This document shows positions 19,366-38,427 of a DNA stretch of 64,000 nucleotides, piece after piece; the first letter of the stretch is position 1, and every line of letters begins with the position of its first letter. The stretch lies in NCBI GenBank assembly GCA_017411325.1, contig JAFQQJ010000031.1, positions 1 through 64,000 of the forward strand, given 5' to 3'. The notes beneath the pieces are model-generated. The model worked only from the letters and a program-made list of their open reading frames with translations. It was not told the DNA's origin and made no database searches. The stretch is from Clostridia bacterium (GTDB lineage Bacteria > Bacillota > Clostridia > CAKSNL01 > HGM11501). The translations under genes and the position numbers were made by a program.

Positions 19366-19392
19366 AATATTCAATGCAGCGATTCGAACTTG

Positions 19393-19645
19393 TCGCAGCA
19401 CAAATTGCCCGCAGGGAATTTGTGCTATGTCGCATCGGTACACTGCCGCATGGCTTAGCACTATCGCAGCAACACAAACGGGACAGCACAGAGACCGTCC
19501 CCTACGGTCGCAGCACAAATTGCCCGAAGGGAATTTGTGCCATGTCGCATCGGTACACTGCCGTTTGGCTTAGCACTTTTTTGGCAACGCAAACGGGACG
19601 GCACAGAGACCACCCCCTACTGTCGCAGCACAATCGGCAATACAG
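19393..19645. repeat. 115-bp tandem repeat (two full copies and a partial third)
   Basis: Units begin with TCGCAGCACAA at 19393, 19508 and 19623, a period of exactly 115 bp; copies 1 and 2 are about 85-90% alike, and the third breaks off after about 20 bases. Each full unit holds a hairpin GCACAAATT-GCCCG(C/A)AGGG-AATTTGTGC and, near its end, a minus-strand REP-like palindrome preceded by GTAG (19479-19505, 19594-19620). Open frames across the block are by-products of the GC-rich repeat; none has a start signal. Confidence 0.85.
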
Positions 19646-19652
19646 GCGGTAC

Positions 19653-19677
19653 GTAGGGGAGGGGCTTGCTCCTCCCG
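19653..19677 (+). repeat. REP-like palindrome (GTAG type)
   Basis: GTAG followed by the palindrome GGGAGG-GGCTTG-CTCCTCCC. The same element occurs twice inside the transposase gene at 36566-37051. GTAG next to a palindrome is the hallmark of REP sequences recognised by RAYT transposases. Confidence 0.75.
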
Positions 19678-19741
19678 TTTGGAAATCGTCTTTTTCCAAA
19701 CAAAAAACCGGCAGACTCCTCGTTCTGTCGGTTTGATGCTT

Positions 19742-35427: not shown

Positions 35428-36549
35428 ATGGCTAAAGATATAAGATATACCTATCCTGCGTTAAAGGAATTCTGCGAAACCGCATTTCAGAAAATCGGCT
35501 TTTCAAAGGGTGACAGCGAAATTATAACGGACGTGCTTCTGCTTTCAGACCTTTACGGAATTGCAAGCCACGGAATGCAGAGACTTGTAAGATACCATAA
35601 GGGTATTGAAAAGGGATTAATCAAGGTTGATGCAAAGCCTGAAATCGTCTTTGAAACCCCCGTTTCTCTTGTAATCGAGGGTAACGATGGTATGGGACAG
35701 CTCAATTCCTATTTTGCAATGACCAAGGCAATCGAAAAAGCTGAAAAGAGCGGCATCTGCATTGCCAACGTGAGAAATTCAAACCACTTCGGTATTGCAG
35801 GATACTATGCAAAAATGGCGGCGGACAAGGGCTATATCGGTTTTGCTATGACAAATTCCGAGGCGATTATGGTTCCCACCTTCGGTAAAAAGGCAATGCT
35901 CGGCTCTAACCCCATCGCAATGGCAATGCCAGCAAAGCCCTATCCTTTCTTCTTCGATGCATCAACAACCGTTGTAACAAGAGGAAAACTTGAGCTTTAC
36001 AATAAAATGGAAAAGCCCCTTCCCGAGGGCTGGGCGCTTGACAAAAACGGACACGGCTCCTCCGATGCATCCGATGTTCTTAAGAATATCGTTGCCAAGG
36101 CAGGCGGCGGAATTATGCCCCTGGGCGGTGAAACCGAACAGCTGGGAAGCCACAAGGGCTACGGCTATGGTATGGTTTGCGAAATTTTCTGTTCCATCCT
36201 TTCTATGGGTATCACTTCAAATCACACCCATATCGACGGTAAGGGCGGCACCTGTCACGGCTTTGCTGTTATCAATCCTGCAATTTTCGGAAATCCTGCA
36301 GAAATTGAAGAGCATTTTTCAACCTTCCTTCGTGAGCTTCGTGAAGCTCCCAAGGCTGAGGGTGCGGAAAGAATTTACACCCACGGCGAAAAGGAAGTTA
36401 TCGCATATCGCGACAGAATGGAAAACGGCATTGACATAAATGTCAACACCGTTGCCGAAATGGTTGACTTCTGCGAGTTTGTAGGTCTTGACGTTGAAAA
36501 GTATCTCGGCAAGCTTGACCTTGAAAAGAAGGAAAGCTCCTATAACTGA
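35428..36549 (+). CDS. Ldh2-family (malate/L-lactate/ureidoglycolate) dehydrogenase
   Basis: 373 residues. NAD(P)-dependent 2-hydroxyacid oxidoreductase of the Ldh2/YlbC fold, unrelated to classical LDH. Signatures: SDLYGIASHGMQRLVRY, VRNSNHFGIAGYYA (catalytic His), LGSNPIAMAMP and HKGYGYGM. Members reduce or oxidise malate, ureidoglycolate, 2,3-diketogulonate or similar acids; the substrate cannot be decided. AAAAAGGAGATG precedes the ATG; 35 bases after the AraC gene, probably co-transcribed with it. Confidence 0.88.
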   Translation: MAKDIRYTYPALKEFCETAFQKIGFSKGDSEIITDVLLLSDLYGIASHGMQRLVRYHKGIEKGLIKVDAKPEIVFETPVSLVIEGNDGMGQLNSYFAMTKAIEKAEKSGICIANVRNSNHFGIAGYYAKMAADKGYIGFAMTNSEAIMVPTFGKKAMLGSNPIAMAMPAKPYPFFFDASTTVVTRGKLELYNKMEKPLPEGWALDKNGHGSSDASDVLKNIVAKAGGGIMPLGGETEQLGSHKGYGYGMVCEIFCSILSMGITSNHTHIDGKGGTCHGFAVINPAIFGNPAEIEEHFSTFLRELREAPKAEGAERIYTHGEKEVIAYRDRMENGIDINVNTVAEMVDFCEFVGLDVEKYLGKLDLEKKESSYN

Positions 36550-36565
36550 GAAAAGTAGCTATACT

Positions 36566-37051
36566 ATGGTACCACCAAAACGGAAACCTGCAAGATTAAA
36601 AGGATATGATTATTCTTTGCCCGGTGCATACTTTGTAACGGTTTGTACAAAGGACAGAAAATGTATATTGGGAGAAATCGTAGGGGAGGGGCTCTGTCCC
36701 CTCCCGGAAAATATATTAACGCCTTTAGGAAAAGAAACGGAAGCCGCAATACAATTTATAGACAATAATTATACCGGCGTAAAAATAGACCGGTATGTTA
36801 TTATGCCGAATCATATCCATTTAATAGTGATTATTGAAGATACGGGAGGGGACGGAGCCCCTCCCCTACAAAGCATAATGGGACGGTTAAAGTCTTATAC
36901 TACAAACGTATACGGAAAAACACTTTGGCAGCGTTCCTTCCACGACCATATAATCCGTGATGAAGAGGATTATAAAAAAATTGCCGAATACATTGATACC
37001 AATCCGCAAAAATGGAAGCTTGATTGCTTTTACTATGGAAAACCGCAGTGA
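36566..37051 (+). CDS. REP-associated tyrosine transposase (RAYT, Y1 transposase)
   Basis: 161 residues from ATG 36566. IS200-like HUH endonuclease: MPNHIHLIV (about 88-96) carries the HUH pair, and WQRSFHDHIIRDEEDYKKIAEYI includes the candidate catalytic tyrosine. N-terminal GAYFVTVCTKDRKCIL is typical for RAYTs. These single-copy enzymes act on REP palindromes. Two REP palindromes lie inside the coding frame (36680-36706 and 36843-36869) and are translated as VGEGLCPLPEN and GGDGAPPLQS. No IS ends were found around it, so it is a domesticated-type RAYT. Confidence 0.88.
   Translation: MVPPKRKPARLKGYDYSLPGAYFVTVCTKDRKCILGEIVGEGLCPLPENILTPLGKETEAAIQFIDNNYTGVKIDRYVIMPNHIHLIVIIEDTGGDGAPPLQSIMGRLKSYTTNVYGKTLWQRSFHDHIIRDEEDYKKIAEYIDTNPQKWKLDCFYYGKPQ
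36680..36706 (+). repeat. REP-like palindrome within the RAYT gene (copy 1)
   Basis: GTAG followed by palindrome GGGAGGGG-CTCTGTC-CCCTCCC. Confidence 0.8.
36843..36869 (-). repeat. REP-like palindrome within the RAYT gene (copy 2, inverted)
   Basis: The minus strand reads GTAG then GGGAGGGG-CTCCGT-CCCCTCCC, the inverse of copy 1, 137 bases downstream. Confidence 0.8.
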
Positions 37052-37070
37052 ATTTCGCTGCGGTTTTTTT
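37039..37070. terminator. Terminator between the RAYT gene and the 37069 gene
   Basis: AACCGCAG/CTGCGGTT with a 9-nt loop and T7; it includes the RAYT stop codon. Confidence 0.8.
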
Positions 37071-38427
37071 AATAAATTCTTTTTATTATACCAAACTGTT
37101 CGTTGGTGATGTAAATCTTTCCGTCGGGGGAGGCAATGGCTTTATCCGAATAGATATAACGCCTGAGAAGCGTAAGCTTTTCTCCGTCGAAGGAGTAATA
37201 GCCGTCGTTATAGGGCGATACACTGTAGTTGTTGGAGCTTAAACTGATGGCATACTCTTCAGGCATCCATAAGCATTTTAAATAAACCTTTCCGTTTGCT
37301 TCACCGATTAATTCCACGCTGTTAAAGTCGGGGAAAAGGTCATTTATATAGGTTACGCCTCCGTCCGGAGAAATCTTGCAGAGATGTAAGTGCTTGTGAA
37401 GGAAGGTATTTCCCTTCCATCCCGTGTAGCGGAGGGAGGAAACGTAAACATCATCGCCGATTTTCACAGCCTTTTCCACATAAGAATTGTCAGTAACTCT
37501 TATAAAGGAGTCGTCAACAACGAGGTAGGTGTGACGTTCATAAGGGATATAGGGGGGCTGTGTAACGGAATAGTGATAGCCGAGGCTTAAGGTTATAAAG
37601 TGCATTCCGTTTTCGGTATATTCTGTGTAGCTTGCTTTTGAGTCATCAAGGGTGGTAGTCCCCGAGGCTAAAACTGAAATTTCAGAAAGAACCTGTCCGT
37701 CAAGCACGAAGCGGTTGTCTTTAATCTCAAGCTTTCGGTCGGACATTATAAATTCCCGTCCTTCCTTGTATTCAAAGGGCTCGATTTTTGTTATTTCGTC
37801 GGTTTTGTAGTCAACGCGGAAAAATCCTTCGCCGCCCGCCGCAAGACCTCGGATAATTGCATAGTCGGGAGTTTCCTTCAAGATTATCATGGAGCTTCCG
37901 AAGCCTCTGAAACATGGCTTTACGGTAAGGGTGCGCCTGCCGTCCTTTTCGGAAAAGTCAATGTCCCAGTAAAATTCTTCGGTGGCATAATCGTAGGTAA
38001 GGGGGAAATAGGTGATGCCGCGGAAGTTGAAGAGTGGGTATTCTGCTTCGGAGTTATTTACTTTTACGCCGTTCACATAAACGGGGTAGGTAACAAGTGT
38101 TGCCTTGTTGTATTTCGGGTTTTGTGTGGTTTCGTATATGGGAAGGTTACCCATATAATAATCCTTGGGATGCGCGGCAATGAAAAGCCCTTCCCCCTCT
38201 ACCCAGGAGGAGGAAACCTTAAGGGCCGCCATATAGTCATAGGTCATGGGAAAATAGGTTACATCCTTGTATGAAAGGATGGGATAAATTGAATCAAAAT
38301 AGTAAATTGAGCTTGTATCAAGAATAAAATCATAGTCGGGGATTAAAACCGTAATTTCATCCTCCGATGCGGAGGGTATTACGCAAAGTGCAAGGACAAT
38401 GGTGATTAAAAGTATTATTTTTTTCAT
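37069..38427 (-). CDS. Secreted protein with copper-amine-oxidase N-terminal-like repeats
   Basis: 452 residues from ATG 38427, with AAAGGAGG upstream; in-frame codons before it lack a start signal. Signal peptide about 1-20. Two copies of a short repeat, YPILSYKDVTYFPMTYDYM and YPLFNFRGITYFPLTYDYA (about 48-66 and 130-148), match the stalk-type 'copper amine oxidase N-terminal domain' found in many Firmicutes surface proteins, which is not catalytic. The remainder (about 170-450) has propeller-like strands (KIGDDVYVSSLRY; DGKIYITNEQFG). Extracellular; role unknown. Confidence 0.72.
   Translation of the reverse strand: MKKIILLITIVLALCVIPSASEDEITVLIPDYDFILDTSSIYYFDSIYPILSYKDVTYFPMTYDYMAALKVSSSWVEGEGLFIAAHPKDYYMGNLPIYETTQNPKYNKATLVTYPVYVNGVKVNNSEAEYPLFNFRGITYFPLTYDYATEEFYWDIDFSEKDGRRTLTVKPCFRGFGSSMIILKETPDYAIIRGLAAGGEGFFRVDYKTDEITKIEPFEYKEGREFIMSDRKLEIKDNRFVLDGQVLSEISVLASGTTTLDDSKASYTEYTENGMHFITLSLGYHYSVTQPPYIPYERHTYLVVDDSFIRVTDNSYVEKAVKIGDDVYVSSLRYTGWKGNTFLHKHLHLCKISPDGGVTYINDLFPDFNSVELIGEANGKVYLKCLWMPEEYAISLSSNNYSVSPYNDGYYSFDGEKLTLLRRYIYSDKAIASPDGKIYITNEQFGIIKRIY

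Follow-up and report, generated by a model that had tools for sequence, protein, structure and literature searches.

REPs carried in frame inside tnpA-REP genes have been described as unique to subclass 2.4 (Quentin et al., 2018, PMC6006769), so on the text of that article REPs inside RAYT genes are already known. There the insertions generally lie between the HuH and Y motifs, and the article text gives no second site before the HuH segment, no fixed opposite orientation, no within-gene matching and no concerted change. Other described systems combine the same ingredients differently. In the canonical REPtron, one RAYT stands between two REPs of its own family in inverted orientation (Nunvar, 2010, PMC2817692), and the two inverted REPs of a REPIN, or BIME, can form either a hairpin each or a single long hairpin (Bertels and Rainey, 2011, PMC3116915). 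In-frame palindromes tolerated in loops are also known from intragenic GTAG REPs and Rickettsia palindromic elements, which hit various unrelated genes (PMC3733652). Known TnpA-REP enzymes bind and cut the single-stranded GTAG tag with its hairpin; in vitro, the Escherichia coli enzyme tolerates most changes of stem sequence and leaves the inverted REP unbound (PMC8266576).

Here we compare with these systems a RAYT gene found in a 64,000-nucleotide stretch (the window) of a Clostridia bacterium genome (assembly GCA_017411325.1, contig JAFQQJ010000031.1, forward strand). Like the subclass 2.4 enzymes (group 4 of Bertels), as described in the text of PMC6006769, it has NHIH, WQ and YIxxNP motifs, in-frame REPs and a variable insert between beta3 and alphaC, off the active site. 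Unlike the REPtron pair, its REPs lie within the ORF, around the catalytic segment; unlike in a REPIN, a doublet that multiplies as a unit in the genome, the spacer of about 140 nt is protein-coding; and unlike the other intragenic elements, the REPs are paired, fixed in place and housed in the gene of the related enzyme. A literature search covering the text of PMC6006769 but not its supplementary Figure S10 found no description of a matched, oriented and co-changing pair around the HuH segment, so priority for the paired arrangement is uncertain.

An inverted REP pair inside a RAYT reading frame

The window gene is a RAYT (TnpA-REP), and on this sequence and fold agree (Table 1). It matches Pfam Y1_Tnp (E = 2.4e-5) and the NCBIfam equivalog REP_Tyr_transpos (5.4e-19, yet under the family cut-off), and PDB 4ER8 is its top match both by sequence (3.1e-10) and by fold (8.1e-8). 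The HuH and Y--NP features are present, with H83, H85, Y142 and N146 all invariant in an alignment of 77 homologues, as is the association with GTAG-tagged palindromes that marks RAYTs—two lie within the gene and further ones in the genome. Against the subclass 2.4 motifs NH[IFV]H, WQ and YIxNNP, the window gene has NHIH, WQ and YIDTNP and its relatives YIENNP or YIDENP; assigned by motifs and not by a subclass model, it appears to be of the subclass 2.4 / group 4 kind. The gene starts 16 nt past the stop of an upstream 373-aa oxidoreductase-like gene (36549-36566), and its own stop codon sits, as judged by eye, within a terminator-like hairpin followed by T7 (about 37040-37071).

Table 1. Positions within the window of the RAYT gene, its internal elements and an extragenic REP
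Feature	Position	Strand	Basis
RAYT / TnpA-REP gene, 161 aa, HUH single-strand endonuclease	36566..37051	+	PF01797, NCBIfam REP_Tyr_transpos, fold match 4ER8
Site 1: forward REP with GTAG foot, 8-bp stem and 6-nt loop; in frame, residues 39-47	36680..36706	+	sequence, folding, model (predicted beta-hairpin loop)
Segment between the REPs, 136 nt, coding for first helix and HuH strand	36707..36842	+	sequence, model
HuH metal-binding motif codons, MPNHIH	36803..36820	+	sequence; M80, P81, H83, H85 invariant in 77 homologues
Site 2: reverse REP matching site 1 at 26/27; in frame, residues 93-102	36843..36869	-	sequence, folding, model (predicted loop ahead of helix 101-116)
Catalytic tyrosine Y142 codon, within YIDTNP	36989..36991	+	Y142, N146 invariant in alignment
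Extragenic REP, same GTAG foot, similar stem, different loop	19653..19677	+	sequence, folding, family census

The initial annotation had placed two GTAG palindromes in opposite orientation in this gene, both translated in frame, and it proved exact in its coordinates and right about the translation. Site 1 (GTAGGGGAGGGGCTCTGTCCCCTCCCG) and site 2 are both 27 nt long, the second being an inverted copy of the first (96% complementary), and each folds as a GTAG foot, an 8-bp stem and a 6-nt loop. They read in frame as IVGEGLCPLPE and TGGDGAPPLQ, respectively. Their feet point outward, giving the inverted REP doublet typical of REPINs, and the two sites and their spacer make up a unit of about 190 nt. 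Chance is excluded as a source both of the palindromes (two GTAGGG palindromes observed in the gene vs 0.005 expected) and of the pair (none of 2,000 dinucleotide shuffles of the gene gave two). No external REP was found within 300 bp of the gene, so the flanking inverted REPs of a canonical REPtron are absent here. The annotation had also suggested that the inserts are tolerated in loops, and an AlphaFold model (pLDDT 87; from an alignment built without two plasmid rows) agrees: both are predicted to occupy loops, site 1 (39-47) as a turn joining two short strands and site 2 (93-102) as a low-confidence loop leading from the HuH strand to the next helix.

What had been called a third copy, at 19653-19677, does share the GTAG foot and has a similar stem, but carries a CTTG loop instead of CTCTGT; this looser relative probably belongs to another REP family of the genome. 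Just ahead of it, a 115-nt unit is repeated in tandem (2.1 copies with 88% matches; 19392-19633), and across this repeat runs a 120-aa ORF (19374-19736) that looks spurious. The genome-wide count that the annotation had proposed gives 11 places matching the window gene's REP pattern at up to 3 mismatches, the two in-gene ones included. Two extragenic REPs of this family (L001 and L002; G000:C6 6927 and 12119) lie about 5 kb apart within a longer repeated unit. A sample of 820 kb (28%) from the window's own genome contained 34 GTAGGG palindromes of several families, 9 of them in RAYT genes that make up about 0.3% of the sample; a palindrome followed GTAGG in 42 of 782 cases there, vs roughly 1% or less with control tags. 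Cognate REPs are scarce, and for some internal REPs the 28% sample contains no close outside copy.

Five RAYT copies occur in this genome, which is incomplete, and their REPs differ from one another. Three (the window gene, L013 and L015) carry both internal sites in the same two positions, the REPs of each gene matching in inverted orientation; a fourth, L014, has site 2 only, plus a forward copy further along; and the fifth, L016, is truncated by a contig end. In L014 (G000:C14:188081-188566) site 1 is short, and the reverse REP at gene nt 270 and the forward REP at nt 354 form an inverted pair in another arrangement.

Distribution and concerted change among relatives

A search across the class, together with a scan of 84,980 species genomes, gave 156 usable genes, of which 140, mostly from Clostridia, were kept after dropping those more than 85% identical; a phylum-wide search was treated apart from this set. 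The homologues were picked by similarity to the window gene, and many are metagenome-assembled. Most are intact, 119 of the 140 passing an open-frame and length filter. Both sites were found in 90 genes, site 2 only in 26, site 1 only in 12 and neither in 12; thus 36% are without at least one detectable site, as judged by a palindrome detector that overlooks decayed or bulged palindromes. Orientation is nearly fixed (site 1 forward 102:1; site 2 reverse 116:5), and in the 90 two-site genes the forward REP stands ahead of the HuH-coding segment and the reverse REP behind it, at the same two places, with a median spacer of 142 nt. The tree reconstruction gives presence at both sites as the root state, followed by scattered losses that amount to about as many changes as random labels would, so that presence of a site by itself carries little phylogenetic signal.

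Relatives without the inserts, for which the annotation had proposed to look, exist: 9 genes have a short (empty) site, and homologues from Leptolinea (Chloroflexota) and Spirosoma (Bacteroidota) are without both. The Leptolinea gene has REPs only outside it and the Spirosoma gene has a double-foot palindrome directly 3' of it, a layout that fits the classical REPtron as an alternative state. Some other Bacillota RAYTs (L243, L244 and L245, G634; L246 and L247, G592; L248, G653) have REPs in the site-2 region that are forward or double-foot, without the Clostridia-type matched pair; in L243-L245 they are long inserts of several hundred nt. Plasmids yielded only distant relatives.

Beyond position, the two sites of a gene match each other. 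Past the foot, identity is 91% within genes vs 63% between genes in the 140-gene set, a value that no permutation out of 20,000 reached. In 45 path-disjoint gene pairs, taken from a tree that left out the REP columns, how far two genes differ at site 1 correlates with how far they differ at site 2 (rho 0.81; 0.73 given protein identity), and where the palindrome switched, both sites had changed in 17 of 22 pairs. Because the divergences correlate across path-disjoint pairs and most switches are joint, relatedness alone is insufficient to account for the matching. For each of the two sites, the tree implies about 44-45 changes of the outer stem word. Cassette-like exchange of the HuH segment between genes is rejected, segments inside and outside being alike in switch and non-switch pairs (p = 0.37). 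Since many gut-bacterial relatives share the layout with other hairpins, what is preserved seems, from these sequence comparisons, to be the matched pair itself. REP palindromes within a RAYT frame, which the annotation had noted in the window gene, are real but not peculiar to it, and subclass 2.4 offers a published precedent.

A forward REP lies within 200 nt upstream in 16 of 35 genes where site 1 is absent vs 17 of 100 others (p = 0.0012, kinship ignored), and in 15 of 28 where site 1 is decayed at full length (vs 17 of 100; p = 0.0003, kinship again ignored); with a short site 1 it is found in 1 of 7, so the effect is confined to decayed full-length sites. Absence of site 1 is scattered over the tree. 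Some relatives of the window RAYT carry external REP copies, and those beside a gene are similar to the REP inside it (0.86 vs 0.63). For dispersed REPs 1-10 kb off the agreement is only partial: 9 of 30 agree with the internal REP at ≥90% vs 1.4 expected, and their mean similarity to it is non-significant (p = 0.15).

What the pair may be kept for

We favor the reading, at a probability of roughly 55%, that the RAYT ORF holds an outward-facing, REPIN-like pair of cognate REPs on either side of its catalytic core, and that the pair is retained as DNA sites at which the gene's own product acts. The enzyme would recognize the pair in the gene that encodes it when the DNA is single-stranded and folded, each DNA strand presenting exactly one GTAG and hairpin. 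As a fixed reference copy the pair may link the enzyme with its REP family, it may serve as cleavage sites that limit or mobilize the gene, or both. Excising the roughly 190-nt unit would leave 86 of the 90 genes out of frame and thus inactive. As the E. coli enzyme tolerates stem changes and ignores the inverted REP, one enzyme need not force two matching stems; the scarcity of cognate REPs in the window's genome and the 36% of genes without at least one detectable site also speak against this reading. A bolder form, which we put forward only tentatively, is that each RAYT gene of the clade is a coding REPIN—its REPs matched identity tags, obliged to stay identical and co-evolving with the enzyme, and the gene an obligate substrate of its own product. 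If that were true, the pair would be a self-limiting cleavage site or a master copy seeding the REP family.

Among the alternatives, the one that survives best, unlikely as we judge it, is that the two copies are homogenized by template switching or gene conversion and persist in tolerant loops as relics of inheritance that no longer have a function. Such correction classically acts on inverted repeats spaced like these, about 140 nt apart; the pair is also old and vertically kept, being present at both sites at the root, and losses are frequent. The loop tips speak against it. Where both copies are 26 nt long, stem positions 7-9 differ in 4-20% within a gene vs 28-46% between sister genes, and the two apical bases differ within a gene (37 and 53%) as they do between sister genes (32 and 50%). 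This contrast, which across all lengths is weaker and barely significant (interaction CI -0.287 to -0.005), favors, without proving, the view that the stems are under selection rather than one copy being converted wholesale by the other. Also against relics, the local hairpin and GTAG foot stay intact through many stem changes, and decay of the left copy goes with an external substitute.

Slightly less probable still is that, in mRNA or single-stranded DNA, the two sites pair into one stem of about 27 bp that loops out the HuH-coding segment and dampens expression (e.g., by attracting RNase III or holding up ribosomes). Whole-gene folding does predict exactly this 27-bp pairing of site 1 with site 2 (DNA z -5.2, RNA z -6.4), and selection on such a stem would act on site-to-site matching. 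However, a long stem needs neither palindromic copies nor a GTAG foot nor any likeness to extragenic REPs, and complementarity of the apical bases is not maintained.

We consider it improbable that mobile REPs from the genome's own pool inserted repeatedly at two loop-coding hot spots. The short sites, including the Leptolinea and Spirosoma homologues, and the REPs of other orientation at site 2 in some other Bacillota would suit such insertion, but orientation is the same at both sites in nearly all genes, presence is reconstructed at the root, and independent events would not so regularly yield matched pairs. That Gly/Pro-rich loops are selected as protein with the palindromes as by-product is largely refuted and very improbable: site 1 is in phase 0 in 99 of 102 genes, almost always as GTA-GG (Val-Gly), but much of that bias is expected because one other phase reads a TAG stop, and site 2 rejects selection on the peptide.

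Conservation of DNA in a coding gene and its meaning

At site 2 the CTAC falls in all three phases (85, 24 and 7 genes), and the peptides read from the three frames are mutually unrelated (GGDGAPPLQ, NGTSRTSSPT and LREAPLR). It follows that what is conserved is the DNA and not the peptide; homologues keep the palindromes in other sequences and frames, and the shared peptide that would have spoken against the initial annotation was not found in them. The 8-10 encoded residues, placed by the model in predicted loops, are probably tolerated. The RAYT pair is thereby a clear case of conservation at the nucleic-acid level within a coding gene across different frames.

The clade supplies natural combinations of enzyme and tag in a single gene, with dozens of inferred tag switches. 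Some loci double the material: a tandem of two similar REP-bearing RAYTs (L126:10001-11271) has identical internal REPs in both, and four loci with two RAYT genes each (L107, L112, L127 and L159) have internal REPs unlike each other (in L112 partly so), making them natural tests of specificity. Such linkage of enzyme and tag makes enzyme-REP specificity readable from sequence and testable by a single-strand cleavage assay, and it touches on the open questions of how REPs spread, how RAYTs and REP families are matched and how non-mobile transposases persist.
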